NCBI GenBank assembly: GCA_016201275.1
Contig: JACQDB010000090.1
Location: 1-64,000, forward strand
Length of the DNA: 64,000 nt
Direction of reading: 5' to 3'
Source of the DNA: Acidobacteriota bacterium
Lineage (GTDB): Bacteria > Acidobacteriota > Blastocatellia > UBA7656
This document shows positions 42,953-56,472 of the stretch, in pieces (the stretch's first letter is position 1; every line of letters starts with the position of its first letter). The notes beneath the pieces were generated by a model. The model worked only from the letters and a program-made list of their open reading frames with translations. It was not told the DNA's origin and did no database searches. The position numbers were made by a program, and so were the translations under genes.

Positions 42953-45900
42953 TCACAATTTAATCTGCGGCAGATTGGCTTGGCGCAGTTGGTCATTCAA
43001 GGCTTTCCCCTCCTTCTCTTTCAACTCTTGCCAACGGGCTAACAAAGTCGCGAGCGTTTTTTGCGCTTCACGAAATGCCGCTACTGCCTGCGTGGTCGGC
43101 TGCACGTCTGCGCCTTCAACCAAATTCATCAAGGCGCTCAACTCGCTGCTCACTCGTGTGAAATTCGCTTCGCCACTTCCTGGTGCGTTGCCACCACCGC
43201 CGCCGCGCAAGCCGTTGCCAACTGCGCCTTCAAGCGCTGCCGCTTTTTTATCGAATGCCGCTATCGCCTCAGCTATCGCGCTCTGGCCTGCGTCGGCTTT
43301 GAGGGCGGAGAGTTGATTTCTGAGTTGGCGAATTTGCTCCTGCGCCACGCGGCTTTGCGCCATGCCTGCATACGATTTGAAGGCAATCTCGAATTGCTGC
43401 GCCAGACCTTCCACAGGCGTCTTCACTCGCGGGTCCATTTTAATCGTCAACGGTTGCGTGTAGCTCTTGCCACCGGCGGTCAATGTCACCGTGTAGTCAC
43501 CGGGCAACACTGTAGGCCCATTCGGTTCGCTCGGCGTGTCTCGATAAATCGCCGTCATCGGATACGAGCGACGCACGCCTTCCGGCGGCGCGTAGCGCAA
43601 ATCCCAGGTCCAGCGCTGCATACCGGCTGTTGCCGACAACACACGCGGCGGACGGAACCAGTAGGCCGGATACGCTTGAGAATTTTCATCAATCAGTTCG
43701 GGCTGGTCGGCGCTCGAAAAGCGCCGCACCAGTTTATTCGCCTTGTCGAAAATCTCCAGCACCACGGGCTGCGTCGCATCGGCTTGCAAATAATAATTGA
43801 GGATCGCGCCATCGGGCGGATTCTGTCCCATAGGTTCTTCGGGCGGAATCGGCGTGTCAGTGTTGACGCTGCGGCGCACACGATAAGTCAATTGTGGTTT
43901 AAACAGAAACGCCGCCGATGAAGCTACCGGCTGACTCATCTGGCGCAATGGCGTGATGTCGTCAAGTATCCAGAAACTGCGCCCGTGCGTGCCGACTACC
44001 ACATCATCATTATGTATAACCAGATCGCGTATCGAAGTCGCAGGCATATTGAGTCTCAACGACTGCCAGTTATCGCCGTCATCAAACGACACATAAACCG
44101 CCTGTTCAGTGCCCGCGTACAACAAGCCTTTTCGCACAGGGTCTTCGCGCACCACGTTGACGATGCCGCCGTTGGGAAGGCCTCTAGTAATCTCTTTCCA
44201 ACTTTTGCCGCCATCATGTGTGCGATAGATGTGCGGACGCAGGTCATCGAGTCGAAAGGTATTAATCGCCGCATAAGCCGTGTCGTTGTCGAAATGCGAA
44301 GCCTCCATCAAAGAGACTTTCGCCCACGCTTGCAAAGCGGACGGCGTGATGTTCGTCCAGTTTTTGCCGCCATCGCGGGTGAGGTGAATCAAGCCGTCAT
44401 CCGTGCCTGCCCAAATCGTGTTCACGTCTGTGAAGGACGGAGCGACAGTATAAATCACGCCGCGTCTGGGCATCGTCTCCATGTCGGGCGAGCGATAGAT
44501 GCCGACGTTTTTCGGCACGTCCCATTTATCGCGGCTTAAATCGGGGCTGATGACTTCCCAGCTATTGCCGCCATTGGTGGTCTTGAACAATACATTACCA
44601 GCGTAATATAAAACCTTCGGGTCAACGTGCGAGAAGATGACCGGCGCGGTTCTTAGAAAACGATACTTGCCGGAGCGCACCGCTTCGGGAGCGATGTTCT
44701 GGGTTTGCCCTGTAGTCTTGTCAAAGCGCGTGATCTTGCCGCCGTAAATAATATTGGGGTTCAGTGGATCGGGCGCAACATAGCCGTATTCTTCCGCGCC
44801 TACGGTTTGCCAGTCGCGCCAGGTGATCGCGCCGTAATCGCCACGCGAAGCCACGCCCGCCGAACCGCTCTCCTGTTGTCCGCTATAGACCCAATAAGGA
44901 AATTGATTATCAGTGATGACGTGATAAAACTGCGCCGTCGGTTGATTGTACCAACTGCTCCAGGTGTCGCCGCCGTTGACGGTGATGGTCGCGCCCTGAT
45001 CGCTGGCAAATAACATGATGTCCGGGTTGTCTGGGTTGATCCATATACGGTGATAATCGTCGCCGCCGGGTGCGCCCTTAAAACCTTTCCAGGTCTTGCC
45101 GCCGTCGGTGGATTTGTACGAAGCGGTGTTGGCGACGTAAACGATTTCGGGATTTTTCGGGTCGGGGCGAATTTCAGCAAAGTCCGAACCGCGTCCCCAC
45201 AATCTTTGGTCATCGCTGATTTTTCGCCAGCTTGCGCCGGCATCGTCCGAGCGATAGAGGCCGCCGGTTTGCGCGTTGGCGTCCACCGTCGCGTAAATAA
45301 TTTTCGGATTGCTGCGCGATATGCCTATGCCTATGCGGCCTAAGCCTTGGGCGAAAGTAGGCAAGCCTGTGGTTAATTTTTTCCAAGTGGTGCCGCCGTC
45401 GGTGGATTTGAAGAGGCCGCTTTCGGGGCCTTGCCACGCGCCGTTTTCCCAAGGGCCTTGCCGCCCTGCCCACAAATCGGCGTAGAGGATTTGCGAATCG
45501 GTGGGATCAAATTCCACTTGAATCGCGCCGGTGTTTTCGTCTTTGTACAACACCTTCTGCCAGCTTTGGCCGCCATCGGTTGAGCGATACACGCCGCGCT
45601 CTTCGTTTGGCCCGTAAGGATGACCGAGCGCCGCGACAAAAACGCGATTGGCGTCTTGCGGGTCAACGATGATCGAACCCATTTGCTGCGTATCGCGGAG
45701 TCCGAGGTTGCGCCAAGTCTTGCCGCCATCAGTGGATTTATAAACGCCGTCGCCGGTTGCCAGATCGGGGCGTTGCAAGCCTTCGCCGCTGCTGACGTAA
45801 ATGATATTCGGATTGGACGGGGCAACCGCGAGGTCGCCGATAGAGCCGGTCGGCTGGTCATCAAAGATCGGTTTCCAGGTGCGTCCGTAATCGTTGCTCT

Positions 45901-46120
45901 TCCAGACGCCGCCGTTGTTGACGCCTATGTAAAAGAGGTTGGGTTGACCGACCACGCCGGTGGCACCAACCGTGCGTCCGGCGCGAAAGGGGCCAATGCA
46001 ACGCCAGCGAAGGTTTTGATAAAACTTCTGCTCGTATGATTGCGCTCTGGTCAAAGAAGTCAAAAGCACCAACAGCAAAAAGCCTATCAAAGCGAATGCG
46101 AATCTGCGCGACACCATCAT
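42953..46120 (-). CDS. Secreted sortilin/VPS10-like BNR-repeat beta-propeller protein
   Basis: The product of about 1055 residues has a signal peptide (ending LTRAQS) and many BNR/Asp-box repeats of the type YKSTDGGKTWR, giving one or two large beta-propellers (about 25-730). A C-terminal part (about 730-1055) has a beta-sandwich and an alpha-helical region ending in QLRQANLPQIKL. Such proteins are common in Acidobacteriota and are usually annotated as glycosyl hydrolases without proof. None of the glycosidase active-site residues stands out. The ATG at 46120 is preferred because GGAGG precedes it by 6 bases. A TTG at 46126 would be out of place. Confidence 0.9.
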   Translation of the reverse strand: MMVSRRFAFALIGFLLLVLLTSLTRAQSYEQKFYQNLRWRCIGPFRAGRTVGATGVVGQPNLFYIGVNNGGVWKSNDYGRTWKPIFDDQPTGSIGDLAVAPSNPNIIYVSSGEGLQRPDLATGDGVYKSTDGGKTWRNLGLRDTQQMGSIIVDPQDANRVFVAALGHPYGPNEERGVYRSTDGGQSWQKVLYKDENTGAIQVEFDPTDSQILYADLWAGRQGPWENGAWQGPESGLFKSTDGGTTWKKLTTGLPTFAQGLGRIGIGISRSNPKIIYATVDANAQTGGLYRSDDAGASWRKISDDQRLWGRGSDFAEIRPDPKNPEIVYVANTASYKSTDGGKTWKGFKGAPGGDDYHRIWINPDNPDIMLFASDQGATITVNGGDTWSSWYNQPTAQFYHVITDNQFPYWVYSGQQESGSAGVASRGDYGAITWRDWQTVGAEEYGYVAPDPLNPNIIYGGKITRFDKTTGQTQNIAPEAVRSGKYRFLRTAPVIFSHVDPKVLYYAGNVLFKTTNGGNSWEVISPDLSRDKWDVPKNVGIYRSPDMETMPRRGVIYTVAPSFTDVNTIWAGTDDGLIHLTRDGGKNWTNITPSALQAWAKVSLMEASHFDNDTAYAAINTFRLDDLRPHIYRTHDGGKSWKEITRGLPNGGIVNVVREDPVRKGLLYAGTEQAVYVSFDDGDNWQSLRLNMPATSIRDLVIHNDDVVVGTHGRSFWILDDITPLRQMSQPVASSAAFLFKPQLTYRVRRSVNTDTPIPPEEPMGQNPPDGAILNYYLQADATQPVVLEIFDKANKLVRRFSSADQPELIDENSQAYPAYWFRPPRVLSATAGMQRWTWDLRYAPPEGVRRSYPMTAIYRDTPSEPNGPTVLPGDYTVTLTAGGKSYTQPLTIKMDPRVKTPVEGLAQQFEIAFKSYAGMAQSRVAQEQIRQLRNQLSALKADAGQSAIAEAIAAFDKKAAALEGAVGNGLRGGGGGNAPGSGEANFTRVSSELSALMNLVEGADVQPTTQAVAAFREAQKTLATLLARWQELKEKEGKALNDQLRQANLPQIKL

Positions 46121-46468
46121 GCTCAACCTCCGAAGAAAAATTTTTTGAAAAAGCTACTTGACCTGACGCGACCAGTCTTTGGTTTCAACACCAGTTTCCA
46201 TAGCGTTATTTTTCATTGCATAAAGATGCATAGAAATCCCTGCGCGGTGGCGACAACGACAAGGGAAACGCCACCGGGAAGCAAGCTTTATAGCACAGCG
46301 CGACGAATCTGCCTACTGACGAAATGAACTCTTTCAAGCGCGCCGAAGGAGCGCAAAAAGACCAATAAATCTACACTATTTTCACTAACAGGCCGAAGGA
46401 ATTCAGAGCAGAGAAAATCAGCTATAGAAATCATGAAATTGTTTTCCGGGGAACTGAACAGCAGCCTT

Positions 46469-46545: not shown

Positions 46546-46824
46546 CGTACAGGTCGTCCCAATACTGTAGTTTGCCGAAATTTTTTTCTTGAAGGCTATA
46601 GAAAGCAAAAGAGCGATTCCGGAATCCTTGATTTCGTAGAAGCCAGTGGTCTGCGAAACTGCCGAAACTCTAGCGCTGTGACGTGGCGCACACGCGGCCT
46701 GGCGACCGGCGCTCTTGAGCCGCGACAACACGAGTGGCGCGGCTTCAGGCAATCGGTATATAGTGTCCGCCATCTTTTCACAACCAGCAATGAAAGCATA
46801 AATAGATTCGGTCAAGGAGTGGGC

Positions 46825-47697
46825 GTGGTTCAATTGAAGAGGCCGCAAGGACAAGTGGCGGCGGCAGAGCGCAACGAGTTCGATCACCTGGATTGGGTAG
46901 CGGGATTTTCCTTTCTCGCTTACGGCGTTCGCATAGGGGTGCGAACCAATGACGCGCCGGTTATCGAAAAACTATTGCCGCATTTGCCGCCAGGATGGAA
47001 AATTACCGAGGCTGCCGTTGCGCGACGGTATTCGATTGTTACAAGAAGTTCGAGCCAGCGCCATGCGGACAGCTTGCACGAGTTGTATGCCAACGCTGAA
47101 AAGCTTGGCGGCAATGCCAGGCTTGCGCCGTTGCTTGATTTTTTTGAGTCCGACGTGCAGCTATATATTGCCGAACACGCGCCGCGTCGGGTCTTCGTTC
47201 ATGCCGGAGTCGTTGGTTGGCAAGGCAAGGCCATCGTCATACCGGGACGCAGTTACACCGGCAAGACCACTTTGGTCGCGGCGTTGGTAAAAGCCGGAGC
47301 CACGTATTATTCGGACGAGTATGCCGTTTTCGATAAGCGCGGGATGGTGCATCCGTATGCGCGCAGGCTGGGCATTCGTAGCGGACGCACCAGAGTCCGC
47401 ACACAGAAGTATGCAGTGGAAGAATTGGGCGGCAAATCCGGCAGCACAGCCTTGCCTGTCGGTTTGGTCATGGTGAGCAAATATCGGGAAGGGGCGCGCT
47501 TCAAACCGCTAGAGATTTCCGCAGGCGCGAGCGTTCTGGCGTTATTACAGAACACGGTGTCCGCACGACGAAATCCGCAGATGGTATTGCCGACATTGAA
47601 AAATGCCCTTGCCACGGCGCGTTCGTTCAAGAGTGTACGCGGCGACGCCGGGGAGTGCGTTGAGGCAATTTTCCGAGCTTGTGCTTGGCCAGATTGA
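46825..47697 (+). CDS. HPr kinase-like (HprK-related) ATP-binding protein
   Basis: The protein of about 290 residues resembles the C-terminal P-loop part of HPr kinase/phosphorylase: VFVHAGVVGWQGKAIVIPG leads into GRSYTGKTTLVAAL (Walker A, about 141-150), then TYYSDEYAVFDKRGMVHPY. Homologues form a system with a PqqD-domain protein and a nucleotidyltransferase beside exopolysaccharide genes, as here. They are probably protein kinases, but no substrate is known. AAGGAG lies just before a GTG at 46825. An upstream GTG at 46678 would add 49 unrelated residues. Start confidence is moderate. Confidence 0.85.
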   Translation: MVQLKRPQGQVAAAERNEFDHLDWVAGFSFLAYGVRIGVRTNDAPVIEKLLPHLPPGWKITEAAVARRYSIVTRSSSQRHADSLHELYANAEKLGGNARLAPLLDFFESDVQLYIAEHAPRRVFVHAGVVGWQGKAIVIPGRSYTGKTTLVAALVKAGATYYSDEYAVFDKRGMVHPYARRLGIRSGRTRVRTQKYAVEELGGKSGSTALPVGLVMVSKYREGARFKPLEISAGASVLALLQNTVSARRNPQMVLPTLKNALATARSFKSVRGDAGECVEAIFRACAWPD

Positions 47698-47796
47698 GCC
47701 ATATTAATTTGACACTGAATGAAGAAACAAGGTAAGAAACAAAGCGAACGGACGACTAGCCCTTCGCCACATTCAGTGCCTCGTTGAGGAGAATGC

Positions 47797-48294
47797 ATGA
47801 CAACAGAAGAAATAAAACCCCAAGCGCGAAGCGAAGGCTTGGTCATTCAAGAGTTAGCCGATGAAGTCTTGGTGTATGATTTGCAACGTGACAAAGCCCA
47901 TTGCTTGAATCGCACGGCGGCGCTGGTCTGGCAGCATAGCGATGGCCAAAACAGCATCGCGGAGATCGCGGCGCAGGTCGGCCAAAAAACCGGCGCTGCG
48001 GTTGATGAAGCGCTGGTCTGGTTGGCGCTTGAGCAATTAAGCAAAGCCCACTTGTTGCCCGCTATCGTCAAAGCGGAAGTTGGTAAAAAGTCTTTGACGC
48101 GCCGCGAAGTTATTCGTCGCCTCGGCATCGGCGCGGCAGTCGCAATCCCCATCGTCACCAGCATCGTCGCGCCGCTGGCGGTGCAAGCGGCGACTTGTCT
48201 GGGGGCCGGATCACCCTGCTCCTCTGGCGCTGAATGCTGTAGCGGCTTATGCTCCGGCACCTGCGTGGGAGGCCGCCCCGGAGGCAATATTTAA
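47797..48294 (+). CDS. PqqD-domain protein with Tat-like segment and knottin-like C-terminus
   Basis: Residues about 10-92 are a PqqD winged-helix domain, the peptide-binding fold used in ribosomal peptide modification (ELADEVLVYDLQ, HCLNRTAALVW). Then comes a TRREVIRR motif (Arg102, Arg103) like a twin-arginine signal and a hydrophobic stretch (109-131) ending in AVQAA, a likely cleavage site. Last is a 30-residue tail with six Cys (134, 141, 147, 148, 152, 156) in the pattern C-x6-C-x5-CC-x3-C-x3-C, which is the inhibitor cystine knot plan. It lies between the HPr-kinase-like and nucleotidyltransferase genes. The fusion suggests the PqqD part stays inside while the knot is exported. This is inference. 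Confidence 0.88.
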   Translation: MTTEEIKPQARSEGLVIQELADEVLVYDLQRDKAHCLNRTAALVWQHSDGQNSIAEIAAQVGQKTGAAVDEALVWLALEQLSKAHLLPAIVKAEVGKKSLTRREVIRRLGIGAAVAIPIVTSIVAPLAVQAATCLGAGSPCSSGAECCSGLCSGTCVGGRPGGNI

Positions 48295-48373
48295 GGAGAA
48301 TGCCCGTAGGATTGTCCGGCTGCTGGCAGCGCGTAAAGTGAAACGGACAACCTCTTGAAGCGAGTGATTTGCC

Positions 48374-49444
48374 TTGCCCAATGGTCCACAACCAATGCGC
48401 GCCAGTCAGTTGATGGCTCAGTTTCTTTGCGGTTGCTGGCGTTCTTCTGCGTCTGCCAGTGACCTTACCGAAGCCGAATTAAATTTCATTCAACCGCTGC
48501 TGCAAAGTTCCGGGGCGGGGGGGCTGGCGTGGTGGCAAATCCGCCACTCGCCGCTTCACACCGCGCCGGTCGGCAACGCCTTGCAACAAACCTTTCGCCT
48601 GCAAACCCTGCTGGCCGCAAAACACGAAATGGAGATTCAAAACCTCTTCCGGCTCATGCGCGAAGCCAACCTCGAGCCGCTGCTGGTCAAAGGCTGGGCG
48701 ATTGCCCAGCGCTATCCCGCCAAAGGCTTGCGCCCGTATGGCGATATTGATTTGATTCTTCGCCCACGCGATAGAGCGCAGGCCGAAGCGTTGTTGAACC
48801 GTCTTGCCGACAAAACCTTTCGAGTAGATTTTGAACACGAAGAATTGGAAGACTTCGAGGACCAGCGCTATGAAGATTTGCTGGCGCATTCGCAACTGGT
48901 CAAACTGGGCGACAGCGACATTCGCGTAATGAGCGAAGAAGACCATCTGCGCTTTCTGTGCATTCATCTGTTGCGCCACGGCGCGTGGCGACCGCTGTGG
49001 TTGTGCGACATCGCCGTTGCGGTTGAAGCGCGTCCGGCGGCTTTCGATTGGCAACGCTGTTTAGGCGACGACCCGACGCAGGCCGGTTGGGTGTTGAGTA
49101 CGATTCGCCTGGCGGCAGAATTACTGGGCGCACAGATTGACCACACGCCTGCGGCCAAACATCGTTTGCCGAAATGGTTGATGCCTATGGTGCTGAAACA
49201 ATGGGAGCATCCCGGCTCTGCCGATCACGCGCCGCCCGAACTGATTATGACTTCGTTGCGCCATCCTTCGCACCTTGCGAAAGCACTGGCCGCGCGCTGG
49301 CCGGATGCGATTTCCGCTTCCATACGAATGCGTGCGCCGTTCAATGAAAAACCGCGCTGGCCGTTTCAGTTGGCCAACTACGTCAGGCGCGTCACCGACT
49401 TCGGCAAACGTCTGGCAAGCCTGGCGGTCAAACATAATCTTTGA
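48374..49444 (+). CDS. Nucleotidyltransferase family protein (HPr-kinase/PqqD system)
   Basis: The 356-residue protein has a nucleotidyltransferase core: LVKGWAIAQRYPAKGLRPYG followed by DIDLILRPRD, where the two Asp bind metal. Helical domains follow. It matches the uncharacterised NTP_transf_5 family. Together with the HPr-kinase-like and PqqD genes just upstream it forms a three-gene cassette. The substrate is unknown. The start is TTG at 48374 or ATG at 48395. There is a short gap of about 80 bases to the PqqD gene. Confidence 0.85.
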   Translation: MPNGPQPMRASQLMAQFLCGCWRSSASASDLTEAELNFIQPLLQSSGAGGLAWWQIRHSPLHTAPVGNALQQTFRLQTLLAAKHEMEIQNLFRLMREANLEPLLVKGWAIAQRYPAKGLRPYGDIDLILRPRDRAQAEALLNRLADKTFRVDFEHEELEDFEDQRYEDLLAHSQLVKLGDSDIRVMSEEDHLRFLCIHLLRHGAWRPLWLCDIAVAVEARPAAFDWQRCLGDDPTQAGWVLSTIRLAAELLGAQIDHTPAAKHRLPKWLMPMVLKQWEHPGSADHAPPELIMTSLRHPSHLAKALAARWPDAISASIRMRAPFNEKPRWPFQLANYVRRVTDFGKRLASLAVKHNL

Positions 49445-49890
49445 CAAATGGTAGTGGCTCAAGGAAGAGAGCGGTTTCCGCGTCGCGCAACCGACGACCG
49501 GCACCCCATCTTTATCTTGACGATTCGGCCAGCCACTATTACTCTTCCCCTTGCCTACCGGTATCCATTATTATTGAGAACGGTTGTTGAAGTACGAAGA
49601 ATGGGTAGTAGAATTGCGTTTTTGAAGCTTTATCATACAAGCTGAAAACACGAAGAACTGAGCGGTCACGTCATTCCCCCCTACATCATTTCCCCCCCAA
49701 AAAGCGCTCTCGAAATTGGTTCGACGCTTTCCTGGGATGTAGTAATTCTTGACCTTCGCAAAGCCCTGCGCCTGCGCCCACATCCGGCGCAGACGATATT
49801 CAAAATTTATTTGTCGCGGCAGCGATTTCCCGCAAGGGTTTACCCAACATCGGGCGAAGCCTGCCCACAGGGAAAGACGAAAGCACACTG
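49445..49890. other. Intergenic stretch before the exopolysaccharide cluster
   Basis: About 446 bases with no convincing gene. It contains several runs of C (near 49676-49693) and probably the promoter of the exopolysaccharide operon. No clear hairpin or recognised site was seen. Confidence 0.45.
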
Positions 49891-51168
49891 ATGACCATCA
49901 ATCTGCCAATGAAAAATCTGCCTTTGCGTTTGGGGTTTCTGGCGCTCGCTTTGGCGTTGTGCGCCTGGTTGACGATGATCGTGATTTACCACTTCATCAC
50001 CGGCACGCTGGCCGACGAACGCATACCGGTTGAACGCGAACGACTGGCGGCTTCCGTAGAATCGTTTCCCGATTCGGCGCGTCTGAATGCGCGCTACGCG
50101 CAAGCCGAAATGTCGAGCATTGACCGCGATCTGGATAAAGTGATGCGTCACGCTCAACACGCTGTCAATCTGTCGCCGTACAATTTTGAGTATCGGCTGC
50201 TGCTGGCCTCGGCGCAGGAATTAAAAGGCGACCGCGCCGCCGCCGAAAAGACTTTGCAACGCGCTATTCAACTGGCACCCGCCGATCCAGACCCGCACTG
50301 GCAGATGGCCAATGTCCGCTTGCGACAAGGCAAACTGGCGGCGGCATTGCCGGAATTCAAAGCCGCGACCACCGCACGCAGTACCTTTTTACCGGCGACC
50401 CTGGATTTAATCTGGCGCGCTTCGGGCGGCAACGTCGAAGCGGTTGCTGCCGTAACCGGCGATGATACTCGCGCAAAACTTACGCTGGCCAATTTCCTCA
50501 TCAAACAAACGCGCCTCAACGAAGCCGTGCAGGTCTTCAATCAGATAGACCGCAACCAACGCTTACAGTTGGAAGACAGCAGCCGATTAATCAGCGCCTT
50601 TATCGACAGAGGCGCGCTGTCCGTAGCGCGTGAATTGTGGGTCGGACTGGTCAGCAATCCCGGCGATAATCAAAAGGCTTTGTTGTGGAACGGCAGTTTT
50701 GAAAACGACGCGGTGAAAAATTTCACGCAGTTCGATTGGAATCTCAGCCGCAGCGACTATGCCAAATTGAGCGTGGATTCCGGCATCGCGCATAGCGGCG
50801 CACGCGCCTTGAAAATCGAATTCCTCGGCAAGGATACCACCCGCCTCGACAGCGAAATCAAACAACTGCTGGCGCTGGAGTCGGGGCAAAAATACCGTCT
50901 GGAATATTATGTGAAGACCGACAAATTTTCTGCGCCGGAAGGCTTGCGCGTGGTCTTGACCGATATAAAAAGCGCCACCCGAATCGCGGCTACGGAGCCG
51001 CTGGCTTCCGGCACTGCGGATTGGCAACGGGTGACGCTGGATTTCACGACGCCGCCGCAAAGCGTCAGCGGTCTAACCGTCACCATCAAGCGCACCCCGA
51101 AATATAGTTATGACGAACCGACACGCGGCATCGTCTGGTTCGATGATTTCACCGTCACCAAACTCTGA
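49891..51168 (+). CDS. Membrane-anchored TPR protein of the exopolysaccharide cluster
   Basis: The 425-residue protein has one N-terminal membrane helix (about 12-38, LGFLALALALCAWLTMIVIY). A set of TPR-like helical repeats (about 60-235, such as AEKTLQRAIQLAPADPDPHW) comes next, then a C-terminal beta-sandwich (about 260-425, ALLWNGSFEND to WFDDFTVTKL) of a carbohydrate-binding-module type. The periplasmic face is inferred from the single N-terminal anchor. Proteins of this plan often serve as assembly factors in polymer secretion. It precedes the ligase/polymerase, exporter and kinase genes and is probably co-transcribed with them. Confidence 0.85.
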   Translation: MTINLPMKNLPLRLGFLALALALCAWLTMIVIYHFITGTLADERIPVERERLAASVESFPDSARLNARYAQAEMSSIDRDLDKVMRHAQHAVNLSPYNFEYRLLLASAQELKGDRAAAEKTLQRAIQLAPADPDPHWQMANVRLRQGKLAAALPEFKAATTARSTFLPATLDLIWRASGGNVEAVAAVTGDDTRAKLTLANFLIKQTRLNEAVQVFNQIDRNQRLQLEDSSRLISAFIDRGALSVARELWVGLVSNPGDNQKALLWNGSFENDAVKNFTQFDWNLSRSDYAKLSVDSGIAHSGARALKIEFLGKDTTRLDSEIKQLLALESGQKYRLEYYVKTDKFSAPEGLRVVLTDIKSATRIAATEPLASGTADWQRVTLDFTTPPQSVSGLTVTIKRTPKYSYDEPTRGIVWFDDFTVTKL

Positions 51169-51170
51169 GC

Positions 51171-51396
51171 GTCTGAAGGTACGAAGTCCGGCGTCCGGCG
51201 TTTGAACGAATTTTTACGAAGGTGCGAACCTAAAAAAATGCCCGGTTTTATTGGCGTTTTTACAAACTTCGCCGAGTTCGCAGTCAAATCACCTACACCA
51301 TCAAAGCGCAAAACCTTGAGCCGAAACCTGAGTTTCACATCAAAGCTGAACCAGCAAGAGACCGGACGCCGGACGCCGAACTCTCAGACTTCAGAC
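51171..51396. repeat. Inverted-repeat element between the TPR and ligase genes
   Basis: GTCTGAAG (51171-51178) and CTTCAGAC (51389-51396) are outer ends. GTCCGGCGTCCGGCGTT (51186-51202) faces CCGGACGCCGGACGCCGAA (51362-51380). It belongs to the same family as 32521-32740. The body has an open frame joined to the ligase gene, but it is not part of the protein. Confidence 0.7.
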
Positions 51397-51408
51397 TCGC
51401 AACATTTC

Positions 51409-52770
51409 ATGAGCAAAGTTATCGCCAACGGTTTCATTCTGGTCATCGTCTTTACAGCGCTGGCACACGGCGCTGTGGAAGCCTGGTCGGTGGCGAGTTT
51501 CGCCTTGCTCATCATCCTGTTGCTGGGCTTGTGGGCGGTCAAGGCGTTGCTAGACCAACGACTGGAGTTGACCTTGCCGACCTTGCTGTGGCCAATGCTG
51601 GCGCTCCTGCTTTACGGGGTGGCGCAAAGCATCACGGTCACGCGCCAGGACGGGCAGTTGGCGAGCCTGTCAATGGACGTGGAAGCGACGCGCCACGCTT
51701 TGCCAGTGATCTTTTTTTTGCTCGTGAGTTTTGTGCTGGCGGCAAATTTTTTCAACACGGCAGAACGCTGGCGCACGTTGCTCACCTTCATGATGTTTTT
51801 CGGTTTTGCGCTGGCGTTGTTTGCGCTCATTCAAAACTTCACCTGGAACGGCAAACTCTACTGGCTGCGGACGACGCCGTATGCGGCAGTCGGCCCTTTT
51901 GTCAATCGCAATCATTACGCCGGTTTCATGGAGATGCTGGTGCCGCTGCCGCTGGCCTTTCTGGCCACACGCGCCGCACGCAAAGAGTTGTGGATGCTCT
52001 ATATTTTCGTGACCGTAGTGATGGCGTTGTCGGTAGTCTTGTCGTTATCGCGTGGCGGCGTTGTCAGTATGTTGGCAAGCGTAGTGTTTTTGGTTCTGGC
52101 CAATGCTCGCCGCAAAAGCAAAATCACGCCGCGACGCAACGCCAGCGAACCGCAAACCCGCTGGCGTTGGCTGAAAGGCGCGGCAGGCGTTGCGGCATTG
52201 GCCATGATATTGGGAGTCGGCCTCATCTGGCTCGGCGCAGAACCGTTCTTGAATCGCGTCGCTGAATCGCTGAAGCAGACGACGGGTTCGCAAACACCGC
52301 GCAACGATCTCAGCCGCGAATGGATTTGGCGCAACACCTTAACCATGATTGGCGCGCATAAAGTGTTTGGCGTCGGGCTGGGCGCTTATGAAACCGCCTT
52401 CCCCGCTTATCGTTCCAGCGACGCCGAAGAGATTGTCATGCAGTCGCATAATGACTATTTACAAATCGTAGCCGATTGCGGAATGATAGGCGCAGGCATA
52501 GCTGTATGGTTTCTGGTGTTGCTCTGCCGCGCCATCTGGCGGGGCATTCACTCGCCGGATGCCGCGCTTGCCGCTGTGGCGTTGGGAAGCAGCGCCGGGA
52601 TTTTTGCTATGTTGATTCACAGCTTCTTCGATTTTAATTTACAGATTCCGTCAAATGCTTTGTGGTTTTTGACGCTCTGCGCGCTGGTGTCGCGCCTCGC
52701 TATGGTCAAGCGCTCGACGGAAAAAAGTTTGCCTAAGTATGCGCCTGGGGAGTTAGCCAAGATCGCGTAA
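51409..52770 (+). CDS. O-antigen ligase/polymerase family membrane protein
   Basis: The 453-residue protein has ten to twelve membrane helices and the Wzy_C/WaaL-type loop: PFVNRNHYAGFMEMLVPL near the middle and the late motif HKVFGVGLGAYETAFPAY followed by SHNDYLQIVADCG. Members join or polymerise lipid-linked glycans on the periplasmic side. The extension upstream to 51202 comes from an intergenic repeat, so the Met at 51409 (MSKVIANGF) is the likely start. Whether it polymerises the exopolysaccharide or ligates it cannot be told. It is 13 bases ahead of the exporter gene. Confidence 0.9.
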   Translation: MSKVIANGFILVIVFTALAHGAVEAWSVASFALLIILLLGLWAVKALLDQRLELTLPTLLWPMLALLLYGVAQSITVTRQDGQLASLSMDVEATRHALPVIFFLLVSFVLAANFFNTAERWRTLLTFMMFFGFALALFALIQNFTWNGKLYWLRTTPYAAVGPFVNRNHYAGFMEMLVPLPLAFLATRAARKELWMLYIFVTVVMALSVVLSLSRGGVVSMLASVVFLVLANARRKSKITPRRNASEPQTRWRWLKGAAGVAALAMILGVGLIWLGAEPFLNRVAESLKQTTGSQTPRNDLSREWIWRNTLTMIGAHKVFGVGLGAYETAFPAYRSSDAEEIVMQSHNDYLQIVADCGMIGAGIAVWFLVLLCRAIWRGIHSPDAALAAVALGSSAGIFAMLIHSFFDFNLQIPSNALWFLTLCALVSRLAMVKRSTEKSLPKYAPGELAKIA

Positions 52771-52783
52771 AGGAGTAAGGGTT

Positions 52784-53884
52784 ATGCAGTGGAAGACACA
52801 AAAGATGCGCCGTTATATTGCCTGGATGAGCGCCTTTGCAGTGGCGCTGACGTTGGGTTTATGCAGCGCTGCAAGCATGGCGCAGGAACGCCATCAAGCG
52901 CCCACTAAACCGACCAGCCCACGGACTGACAGCGTCGCCGCCAATGTTCTGGTAGATGCCGAAGAAGATTACCGCATCGGCGTCAGCGATGTCATAGAGA
53001 TAAAAGTGGAAGACGCCAAGGCTTTGGACGGCACGTTTCGCATCGGCGCTTCCGGCATCATCACCATGAATTATTTGAAGCGCCTGACGGTAATCAACAA
53101 AACCACCGAAGAGGTGGAAAAGATGATTGCCGACGGTTTGCGCGGCAGGTATTTGAAAGACCCGCAAGTTCACGTCACCGTCGTACAGGTCAACAGTCGG
53201 GCGTTTTTTATACAGGGCGCAGTGAAGCATCCGGGCGTCTATCAAATCGAAGGGCGCACGTCGCTGTTGAAATTAATCAATGTCGCCGGTGGCTTGGCCG
53301 ACAACAGCGGCTCGACCGCTTACATCCTGCGGGAAAACAAATCTCTGACTCAGGAAAACGAACCGAGCAGCGCGGCAACTTCGACCCCGCAACCGCAAGC
53401 CGTGGCCACCACAAATCAGTCGGTAGCGCCGCCTCCTGAATCGGCAACCGACCCGGAGTATGCACTGCTGACCGTCAGCCTCAGCCGCTTTCGTCGCGGC
53501 CAGGTTCCCCCGAATATCGCGCTGCAACCCGGCGATGTGGTGACCATTCCGATAGCCGATGTCTTCTTTGTTGCCGGAGAAGTGAACCAACCCGGCGAGT
53601 TTACTTTGAAGGAAGGCACGACCTTGCGGCAAGCCTTGTCGCTGGCACGCGGCACGACCTTTGAAGCCAAAGCCTCGCAATCCATGATTGTTCGCGAAGA
53701 CCCGACGACCGGCAAACGTCAGGAGATCATGGTAGATGTAGGTGCCGTGATGAGCGCCAAAAAAAGTGATGTGGCGATCATGCCAAACGACATCATCATC
53801 GTTCCCAACAGTCGTTTGAAAACGATAGGCGGCGCGTTATTGAAAACCTTTGGCACCAACGCCGCCCGTTTGCCGATTCGCTAA
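52784..53884 (+). CDS. Wza-like polysaccharide export protein
   Basis: This outer-membrane channel component of 366 residues has a signal peptide (about 1-37, ending SMAQE), then the export domain with the DYRIGVSDVIEIKVEDAKAL opening, and a KTTEEVEKMIADGLRGRYL segment. Two SLBB ligand-binding domains follow (about 140-200, ending at a Ser/Pro/Gln linker, and about 255-330). No lipobox Cys is apparent, unlike E. coli Wza. AAAGGAG supports the start. It lies between the ligase and the Wzc-like kinase, the standard order in exopolysaccharide loci. Confidence 0.92.
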   Translation: MQWKTQKMRRYIAWMSAFAVALTLGLCSAASMAQERHQAPTKPTSPRTDSVAANVLVDAEEDYRIGVSDVIEIKVEDAKALDGTFRIGASGIITMNYLKRLTVINKTTEEVEKMIADGLRGRYLKDPQVHVTVVQVNSRAFFIQGAVKHPGVYQIEGRTSLLKLINVAGGLADNSGSTAYILRENKSLTQENEPSSAATSTPQPQAVATTNQSVAPPPESATDPEYALLTVSLSRFRRGQVPPNIALQPGDVVTIPIADVFFVAGEVNQPGEFTLKEGTTLRQALSLARGTTFEAKASQSMIVREDPTTGKRQEIMVDVGAVMSAKKSDVAIMPNDIIIVPNSRLKTIGGALLKTFGTNAARLPIR

Positions 53885-54021
53885 ACAGCCGGAGACTGCA
53901 AACACCCGGCCTCAGTTCCCTACGGTTTAATCACGCACGCGGCGCAGAAGGTAGCAACCACAAGAATTTGTAGTTGTGGAAGCCTTCGGATACCGCATAT
54001 TGGGCTCCAGACCTGGAGGTT

Positions 54022-56472
54022 ATGATGTCTGACGAAAAACTAGAAATCGAAAAAGTACCGCCAACCGAACTCGTGCAGGAAGAGACGCCGGAATACAACC
54101 CGCGTTATCCCGCCCTGGCCGGTAATACCACGGCGGGCGCTTACGGCTATGGCAACTATGGCAACGAGCCGGATAAAGTACAACTCCGCGAAGTGTCGCG
54201 CATTCTGCGCCGCCGCAAATGGATGATTATCACCATCCTCTTGATTGTCACCACGCTAGTCGCCATAGAGATGTACCGCACGCCCTCGGTTTATGAAGCC
54301 TCCACGCTGGTTGAAGTCGGCAAAGAGAAAGCCTTTTTCAATCGCCCGGAAGTAATGGCTTATCAGGATGATTTCGACCCCTATTTTCAGATCAACATCA
54401 AAACCAAAATCTTGATTCTTCGCAGCCAGGCGTTGATGGAAGATGTCGTAGTCCGGCATAAGCTTTACAATGAACCGGCGTTGATTCATTCGGGCGGCAA
54501 AAAATCCATCTCGCAGGCGTTGCAATTAATCACCTCTCGACTGACCGGCAAAAACTTGCAGGACGCGCCGCCTGTGGAAACTGTCGCCCTGTCGCCGCTG
54601 GATGATTTTCACTACACCGGCTCGGTCGAAGATAGCCAGAAGCTCAGTCCCTATGTCAGCGCAGTGCAAGGCGGTCTGGATATTCAAATCATGAAAGATA
54701 CCCGCGCCATTAAAATCTCTTACACGCACACCGATGCGAAGATCGCCAGGTTGGTCGCCGATGCGGTGACCGATAGTTTTCTCAAGAAAAATTTTGAGAA
54801 TAAAACGGAGAAGTTCGAGGAGACTGCCGGTTGGCTGGAGACTTCCATGCGCGAGTTGAAGGCTAAAGTCCAGCGATCCGAAGGGGACTTGGCCAAATAC
54901 ACCCGCGACCATGAAATCTTTTCCACCGACGGCAAATCCACCTTGACCACCGATAAAATGGGGCGTTTGCACGAACAGTATTTGAAGGCCACCAGCGACC
55001 GCATGATCCGACAATCTTTGCTTGAGGAGGTGAAGGCCGGTCGCGTCAAAGAATTGCCGGAAGCCTTTGCCGATTTAGCCAATCGCTCCGGCTTGAAGGT
55101 TGCCGAACTGCAAAAACAACTTGCCGACCTGGAAGCCAAGAAGAGCGTTTTGGATGACAAATACGGGCCGGAGTATCCAGAGGTGAAAGAGACTTTGCGG
55201 CAAATCGAAGCCGTCCAAAGTCAAATCACCAACAATAACCGCAGCCTGGAACAGTCCATTCAAATCGCCTATGATCGCGCCGTGCGTGAAGAGCAGGCCA
55301 TCAAGCAACAGTTGGATTTGGCCAAAGCTGACGCCGTGCAACAAAATCAGGACACCATAGGCTATAACATTCTCAAATCGGAAGTGGATATTAGCCGCAG
55401 GCTCTATCAAGACTTTCTGGATAAAACCAATCAGGCCAAGTTGCAGGTGGCCGAGCAGGAGAACAATCTGCACTTGATTCAAGGGGCGCAACTGCCGGGC
55501 GCGCCCGCCGGGCCCAATCGCTATCGTTCGATTATGATTGGCATGATGATCAGTTTGGTGGGCGGCATCGCGTTGGCCTTCTTGCTGGAATACATGGACA
55601 ACACCATCAAGAGCGTCGAAGACGTGATGCGCTATACGCAGTTGCCGGCCTTGAGCGTCATTCCGGCAACTCTGGCACCTGCATCGCGGCTGTCGCTGGT
55701 AAAAAAGAAATCCAAAGCCCTCAAGGGCAGCAAGCTGCAAACCGCCTCGACCAGCAACGCGCTGGCGGTGCGCGCCGCGCAATTGACCGCGCTGGACACG
55801 CGCTCGTCCTCTGCCGAAGCTTATCGCGTGTTACGCACTTCGGTGTTGCTTTCGACCGCCGGGCGTCCGCCGAAATTGATGCTCATCACCAGCGGCCAAC
55901 CCGGTGAAGGCAAAACCACCACGGCGGCCAACACGGCCATCTCGTTGTCACAACTCGGCGCTTCCGTTCTGATTATAGATTGCGATATGCGGCGTCCTTC
56001 GCTGCACAAGCTTTTCGGCCTCGACCCGCTGGTAGGGCTTTCGACCTATCTTTCCAGAAACACCAATCTCGACGCCCTTATACAAAAGACCGACATTGCC
56101 AACGTCTCGGTTTTGCCGAGCGGTTCGATACCGCCGAACCCTGCCGAATTAATCAGTTCCGAAAAGATGAAAGAGATGTTGCAGTTGTTAGGCGAACGCT
56201 ACGACCACATCTTGATAGATTCGCCGCCGCTCATCAATGTCACCGACCCGGTGATTCTTTCGACGCTGGTGGATGGCGTGATTCTGGTGGTGCAGGGTAA
56301 CAAGACTTCGCGTGAAGTGGTGCGACGCACACGCCAGGAACTCGCCGCTGTCGGCGCGAAAGTCTTCGGCGTGGTCTTGAACAATGTGGATTTGCGCCGC
56401 GACGGGTACAGCGATTATTACTACTATCGCTACTACTCCAACTACGGCCAAGGCGAAGCCACCGGCGATTAA
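54022..56472 (+). CDS. Wzc-like polysaccharide co-polymerase and tyrosine autokinase
   Basis: The 816-residue inner-membrane protein joins a Wzz/PCP domain, with two membrane helices (about 70-90 and 510-530) and a long periplasmic coiled coil, to a cytoplasmic BY-kinase. The kinase has Walker A GQPGEGKTTTAANTA, Walker A' VLIIDCDMRRPSLHKLFG, and Walker B HILIDSPPL. Its C-terminal Tyr cluster (YSDYYYYRYYSNYG) is the autophosphorylation tail. It controls polymer length and export. The ATG at 54022 follows GGAGG. The frame to 53974 lies before a good site. Confidence 0.93.
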   Translation: MMSDEKLEIEKVPPTELVQEETPEYNPRYPALAGNTTAGAYGYGNYGNEPDKVQLREVSRILRRRKWMIITILLIVTTLVAIEMYRTPSVYEASTLVEVGKEKAFFNRPEVMAYQDDFDPYFQINIKTKILILRSQALMEDVVVRHKLYNEPALIHSGGKKSISQALQLITSRLTGKNLQDAPPVETVALSPLDDFHYTGSVEDSQKLSPYVSAVQGGLDIQIMKDTRAIKISYTHTDAKIARLVADAVTDSFLKKNFENKTEKFEETAGWLETSMRELKAKVQRSEGDLAKYTRDHEIFSTDGKSTLTTDKMGRLHEQYLKATSDRMIRQSLLEEVKAGRVKELPEAFADLANRSGLKVAELQKQLADLEAKKSVLDDKYGPEYPEVKETLRQIEAVQSQITNNNRSLEQSIQIAYDRAVREEQAIKQQLDLAKADAVQQNQDTIGYNILKSEVDISRRLYQDFLDKTNQAKLQVAEQENNLHLIQGAQLPGAPAGPNRYRSIMIGMMISLVGGIALAFLLEYMDNTIKSVEDVMRYTQLPALSVIPATLAPASRLSLVKKKSKALKGSKLQTASTSNALAVRAAQLTALDTRSSSAEAYRVLRTSVLLSTAGRPPKLMLITSGQPGEGKTTTAANTAISLSQLGASVLIIDCDMRRPSLHKLFGLDPLVGLSTYLSRNTNLDALIQKTDIANVSVLPSGSIPPNPAELISSEKMKEMLQLLGERYDHILIDSPPLINVTDPVILSTLVDGVILVVQGNKTSREVVRRTRQELAAVGAKVFGVVLNNVDLRRDGYSDYYYYRYYSNYGQGEATGD

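Follow-up and report, generated by a model that had tools for sequence, protein, structure and literature searches.

A PqqD-type recognition element joined to a twin-arginine signal and a hypervariable Cys-rich tail: an apparently undescribed family of probably exported mini-proteins, in part knottin-like

Why would a soil-type bacterium place an export signal and a small Cys-rich tail behind a domain for peptide recognition, all in one chain? The question is raised by a 165-aa ORF (47797–48294, + strand; ATG start, TAA stop), preceded by an RBS-like GAGGAGA read directly from the sequence at 47786–47792, in the 64,000-nt stretch of Acidobacteriota DNA that we analyzed and refer to as the window. 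A sequence-only reading had described this protein as a PqqD domain followed by a Tat-like motif, a hydrophobic stretch, a signal peptidase site and six cysteines in a knottin-like arrangement, and had proposed an unusual precursor-type fusion. Our analysis of the protein, its relatives and their neighbourhoods suggests that such RRE-Tat-Cys-tail proteins make up an apparently undescribed family of mini-proteins that are exported and stapled by disulfides, with a knottin-like subset.

The N-terminal part (residues ~14–88, 47836–48060) is a PqqD or RiPP-recognition-element (RRE) domain, as judged from Pfam, AF2 modelling and a structural match to lasso B1 proteins. PF05402 (PqqD) matches the window protein at 26.9 bits, above the gathering cut-off of 23.4, and AF2 models residues 11–90 with a pLDDT of 93–97 as strands 15–19, 23–28 and 33–38 and helices 39–46, 54–65 and 71–83, a three-strand, three-helix winged fold like that of lasso B1. 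The best VIA match is the lasso B1 structure 6jx3_B (Z 10.1, rmsd 2.5, 83 aligned), which has a bound leader; further lasso B1 matches reach Z 9.6 (TbiB1) and 9.4, so that lasso B1 proteins stand above the other listed matches, PqqD itself scoring Z 7.3. These discrete RREs share the fold of the window domain but are free proteins that serve another chain, their precursor, in trans; the window RRE instead shares its chain with an export signal and a Cys-rich tail. In the full-length AF2 model a β strand forms at residues 120–124, inside the conserved P-x-[VI]-x-S-[IL]-x-A-P of the signal, and the alignment to 4wd9, the NisB–NisA leader complex, spans model residues 3–127; because of this strand and this alignment, the model hints that the signal segment may lie in the groove of the RRE in the manner of a leader, although AF2 may merely recall known complexes. 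Foldseek searches with the full model were dominated by the RRE and say little on the tail.

The sequence-only reading had suggested looking for further PqqD-tail proteins. Profile searches of 396 genomes of the phylum and of genome contigs, plus neighbourhood fetches, gathered 110 distinct members in all. With 110 distinct proteins sharing it, the architecture of the window protein is neither chance nor oddity, and these homologues, together with the strong constraint on RRE and signal, led us to reject a chance or low-complexity ORF. In a protein search at E ≤ 0.001, members were present in 27 of 58 related genomes, often in several copies each. Most belong to Acidobacteriota (Blastocatellia, Pyrinomonadaceae, Chloracidobacteriaceae and one Vicinamibacteria MAG), and MAGs bearing the labels Gemmatimonadota, Methylomirabilota, Chloroflexota, Myxococcota and Pseudomonadota account for a few more, although binning errors are possible there. 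Cys-tailed forms occur in at least 2 of 200 Gemmatimonadota genomes (G423, G616), and a contig scan gave two further Gemmatimonadetes MAGs with members. A spread through Myxococcota was rejected, since only the seed genome carried the full form among the 189 genomes of that phylum sampled. The fusion is covered by no NCBIfam model; the nearest entries named there are PqqD equivalogs, far under their cut-off.

Downstream of the domain lies the twin-arginine motif T-R-R-E-V-I-R (residues 101–107, 48097–48117), delimited by column conservation and belonging to the TRREVIRR (residues 101–108) that had been pointed out from the sequence; a hydrophobic stretch follows at residues 109–131, with AVQA|A ahead of the tail. 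On the basis of conservation, dN and hydropathy, we assign residues 108–131 (48118–48189) to an h/c-region that closes with an AxA-type site after A131. Its mean KD hydropathy is 2.0 across 18 aa; P118 and P126 are found in all sequences of the aligned set and S122 in 87%. The consensus over the 110 members reads [S/T] (83%), R, R, x, hydrophobic, hydrophobic, [K/R] (94%), x, x, G (89%), where the RR column is partly enforced by the collection filter, just 2 of 114 hits being without RR (one with a broken frame, one cut off upstream). Tat signals are normally N-terminal, whereas this motif sits at residue 101, with ~100 residues of folded domain before it. In its other features, namely the Tat motif, a moderately hydrophobic h-region, a helix breaker and the AxA site, the family signal agrees with the published description of a Tat signal as an SRRxFLK consensus followed by an h-region, a helix breaker and an AxA site (PMC7317946). 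Internal Tat signals have been documented in dual Sec-Tat polytopic Rieske-type proteins (PMC5449189), and the window signal may therefore work like one of these, although theirs lie behind transmembrane helices and the window's lies behind a soluble domain. The window genome (G000) has genes for TatC (224 bits) and for a VKOR-type disulfide oxidase. We consider it quite likely that Tat is the export route.

The six-Cys pattern given by the sequence-only reading, C-x6-C-x5-CC-x3-C-x3-C, is present as described, with cysteines at C134, C141, C147, C148, C152 and C156 (residues 134–156, 48196–48264). Across the family, 106 of the 108 tails with cysteines carry an even number of them: 67 have six, 29 eight, five ten, three twelve and two four, the exceptions being one L099 copy, apparently truncated after three Cys, and L178 with seven. 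After clustering to below 70% similarity the number is even in 97 of 99 tails (two of these without Cys). With an unconstrained Cys number about half of the tails would be expected to be odd, a comparison for which the shared ancestry of the members precludes a p-value. Cysteines that stay even in number across many frameworks (86 spacing patterns among the 110 members) are therefore expected to be paired, which points to an oxidising compartment and hence to export; to judge from the sequences, export of the tail with formation of disulfides is strongly implied. With a mean net charge of −0.01 the tails are neutral; Gly, Ser, Pro and Thr abound in them and aromatics are scarce.

While the carrier is conserved, the tail changes rapidly. 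In 33 close pairs dN is 0.07 in the PqqD domain, 0.06 in the signal and 0.30 in the tail, about four times higher, which shows fast evolution of the tail and not positive selection; the latter could not be formally demonstrated in these pairs, as dS is saturated in the tail. Adjacent paralogues at L077 share 82% identity ahead of the tail and 33% within it, and the L066/L032 paralogues 52–64% and 26–30%, respectively. On a quick tree with many weakly supported branches, framework class requires 37 changes as against a shuffled mean of 62, suggesting that frameworks are inherited for a while yet often switched. Tandem copies with diverged tails were seen at L066:1674-3745, L099:4581-10033 and L077:5968-7250. 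In two proteins, L150:5950-6459 and L146:5854-6417, the RRE and the signal are kept and the Cys tail is lost, the L150 tail being His-Pro-rich instead (HPPQPPHPPNPP...).

How knottin-like is the tail? Its spacing, 6-5-0-3-3, falls within the knottin framework C-x(3-7)-C-x(4-6)-CC-x-C-x-C. A profile built from 17 ICK-type tails retrieved 75 PDB sequences at E ≤ 1 (best E 3.4e-6), and nearly all of the 60 matches listed of these 75 are ICK peptides, either knottin toxins or inhibitors; this bears out the framework proposed from the sequence, and a control profile of 15 CxC-type tails gave zero PDB matches. The L040 tail scores above the Pfam Omega-toxin cut-off (23.4 vs 22 bits), a result that speaks to framework and not to toxicity. 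AF2 gives the tail core a pLDDT of 83–84 when modelled alone and 82–89 in the full protein, the mean of the tail model being a moderate 70.7. With this model, all five Foldseek matches are cystine-knot or toxin peptides (best rmsd 0.9 over 24 columns, at E 1.9 or worse), and VIA reaches Z 2.6 at best. With these models and profiles, a knottin fold in the window tail is plausible and in our estimate fairly probable; its disulfides would then pair I–IV, II–V and III–VI. The strict 6-5-0-3-(3-5) framework is found in 9 members and a relaxed ICK-like one in 26, so the Cys pattern is kept in a subset of the homologues, its spacing being hypervariable over the whole family. Several disulfide frameworks occur on this hypervariable tail, the knottin one among them. 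The sequence-only reading is supported for domain, signal, cleavage site and framework; it does not hold for the knot as a family-defining feature, which we rejected because most relatives carry other frameworks, nor for the fusion as an isolated oddity. Nor is a single origin of the knottin class evident from the quick tree, which needs 17 changes of that label and has few well-supported branches.

The genes next to the family offer a clue to what the RRE might recruit. Counting genes on the same strand within 3 kb of the 81 members with enough flank, we found both an HprK-like kinase and an NTP_transf_5 protein beside 43, the kinase alone beside 9, the NTP_transf_5 protein alone beside 13 and neither beside 16, such that one or both adjoin 65 members. 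The usual gene order, kinase, PqqD-tail protein, NTP_transf_5, is also that of the window. There, the HprK-like kinase (46678–47697, +) was assigned from TIGR04352 (E 1.2e-13), from a P-loop, GRSYTGKT, at its own residues 190–197 and from its conserved upstream position; its start codon at 46678 is uncertain, relatives being ~270–300 aa long, and a PDB sequence search with this protein returned nothing useful. The nucleotidyltransferase-like protein (48374–49444, +) matches PF14907 at 91 bits and has a conserved downstream position. HPr-rel-A systems likewise place an HprK-type kinase (TIGR04352) beside a PqqD-family protein, whereas the window kinase, at 50.8 bits, lies far under the model cut-off of 200. 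A kinase and nucleotidyltransferase pair of this kind phosphorylates and glycosylates lasso peptides, the nucleotidyltransferase homologue attaching a hexose to the phospho-lasso peptide (PMC8498205), and the clusters concerned, such as those of paeninodin and pseudomycoidin, combine HprK-like kinase, RRE and nucleotidyltransferase as the window does (PMC8498205). Their kinase site, however, is a C-terminal Ser without counterpart in our family, where most tails end 0–2 residues past the last Cys without a conserved Ser (that of the window ends in Ile), and the window cargo is disulfide-rich and RRE-fused. We saw no lasso cyclase (Asn-synthetase-like) or B2 protease among the scanned window genes (46678–56472), and no such recurrent neighbour was noted beside relatives. 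A lasso peptide cluster was rejected, since neither cyclase nor B2 was seen among these genes and the tails lack a C-terminal Ser.

A different residue may be modified here. Directly before the first tail Cys, 83 of 108 members have Ser or Thr (Thr133, 48193–48195, in the window), more often so near the HprK-like kinase or NTP_transf_5 (50 of 62 vs 7 of 14; p 0.035, a value that ignores kinship). This enrichment makes the Thr133-type position a candidate modification site.

Based on these observations, we favour a precursor-like protein in which a hypervariable, disulfide-rich peptide, exported through Tat, is carried in cis by an RRE, a reading that we regard as on balance probable and that retains the earlier idea of a precursor-type fusion. 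In a single chain, the N-terminal RRE/PqqD domain leads through a variable linker to a Tat-type signal, behind which lies the small Cys-rich tail. The RRE would stay in the cytosol and serve its own chain in cis, docking the HprK-like kinase and the NTP_transf_5 protein, which may phosphorylate or glycosylate Ser/Thr of the tail; such tailoring comes close to an even call, falling slightly short of it. The RRE may in addition keep the hydrophobic signal covered as long as the chain is not ready, as the AF2 strand at 120–124 could suggest. The RR motif and the hydrophobic segment would then pass the chain to the Tat translocase, leaving the RRE inside, and the tail would cross the membrane, where its paired cysteines would be oxidised; both steps are strongly implied. 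Cleavage by signal peptidase I after A131 would presumably free a disulfide-stapled mini-protein, of ~34 aa and knottin-like in the window. Because the tails switch frameworks while everything upstream is strongly constrained, our guess is that the tail, roughly neutral, works beyond the producer cell as a competitive agent, a signal or a protease inhibitor. Speaking against this explanation are the domain ahead of the Tat motif, the 16 of 81 members without either enzyme, tails without a terminal Ser and, for the knottin part, the moderate tail model with its Foldseek E-values above 1.

The hydrophobic stretch could alternatively be an uncleaved anchor, the PqqD domain serving another peptide or polysaccharide assembly in trans and the Cys tail forming a periplasmic cap. 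Many loci, including the window, adjoin exopolysaccharide operons, and a strict AxA is found in only 76 of 110 members, both of which agree with an anchored accessory. Against it, position −1 is A in 84% and position −3 is A or V in 87% of the 110 members, a fixed interface would not be expected to change nearly as fast as the tail does, and no other small precursor gene recurs beside family members. We consider an anchor unlikely, and release through signal peptidase fairly likely.

The exopolysaccharide genes could also bear on the product itself. In the window, genes for a TPR-CBM protein, a Wzy/O-antigen ligase, Wza-type export and a Wzz/tyrosine autokinase (49891–56472, +), noted as context only, follow the operon, and glycan or exopolysaccharide genes are frequent beside relatives. 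The kinase and NTP_transf_5 protein might accordingly modify a tail Ser/Thr that primes or anchors the surface glycan of the adjacent operon, as the residue preference before the first Cys, its enrichment near the two enzymes and the hexose transfer to phospho-lasso peptide would allow. Several members, however, have no exopolysaccharide genes in view, and a glycan anchor needs no hypervariability; like the anchor, this linkage appears improbable to us.

Even less probable is that the knottin-type tails are inhibitors or substrates of secreted, gingipain-type C25 peptidases encoded nearby, which matches one regularity of the neighbourhoods. Of 70 members, 14 have a C25 gene within 5 kb, namely 9 of 19 with ICK-type tails and 5 of 51 others (p 0.001, again ignoring kinship), and the window genome has just 4 C25 genes in 6.8 Mb. 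Nevertheless, no C25 gene lies beside the window member, nor beside most non-ICK members, and knottins have many other activities. The tails may be inhibitors or substrates of the peptidase, or the two may be partners in processing. Gingipain-type C25 genes were seen within 5 kb at L041, L042, L044, L045, L046, L049, L074, L078, L079, L080, L093, L094 and L141, mostly with knottin-type tails. Finally, an internal start that would yield the PqqD and Tat-tail parts separately and make the fusion only apparent, as a TTG codon just ahead of the RR motif in the window might allow, was rejected as highly improbable, since no start codon is conserved there (Met in only 18% of members) and both parts share one open frame in the members collected.

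The favoured reading, a cis-RRE precursor with an exported tail, can be set against known small Cys-rich proteins. ICK mini-proteins (conotoxins, atracotoxins and plant knottins) share their Cys framework with the window tail and 25 relatives, whereas the window tail is bacterial, neutral, rich in Gly, Ser and Thr, and borne on a PqqD-Tat carrier; the likeness is probably convergent. Bacterial cis-defensins, one of them from Acidobacteria, are small secreted Cys-rich peptides, as proposed for our family, with the pattern CX2-18CX3CX2-12CX4-17CXC, ordinary N-terminal signal peptides and no RRE (PMC11561630); the 6-5-0-3-3 spacing of the window tail, without a CXC end, departs from this pattern. 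In two RRE surveys (PMC7470986, PMC12710340), RREs appear as discrete proteins or joined to enzymes and other domains, and in the passages found we saw none fused to an exported Cys-rich cargo. In the open-licence literature we found nothing linking PqqD with a Cys-rich or Tat-exported tail. We tentatively propose, with some doubt, a new class of peptide system, in which an RRE-Tat carrier would deliver hypervariable stapled, sometimes knottin, mini-proteins across the membrane after tailoring by kinase and nucleotidyltransferase, and which would be a bacterial analogue of the conserved-leader, hypervariable-core design of venom and defensin peptides. If so, stapled mini-proteins would be produced and exported by a new route, in which the RRE is joined to its own hypervariable cargo, the 86 spacing patterns in 110 sequences would form a large natural library of disulfide frameworks on one constant carrier, and a bacterial source of knottin-like scaffolds would be added. 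The family also opens to experiment the question of why PqqD proteins are accompanied by HprK-like kinases and NTP_transf_5 proteins.

Several other neighbours were observed. MauE-thioredoxin-redoxin fusions, likely a disulfide-handling module, lie beside members with tails of 10–12 Cys (L053:6806-8572, L068:7261-8811 and L111:3288-5057). A protein of ~450 aa without Pfam match, cupin-like by eye, recurs beside the family (L040:6514-7794, L043:4800-6113, L053:10267-11634, L066:293-1645, L099 and L149). At L057:9955-10799, three tandem paralogues of ~93 aa upstream of a member resemble EutN/CcmL-type microcompartment shell proteins by eye and are probably unrelated. Upstream of the window operon, on the opposite strand (42953–46126, −), a context gene encodes a 1057-aa secreted β-propeller-type protein, sortilin/VPS10-like through its clustering with L050.
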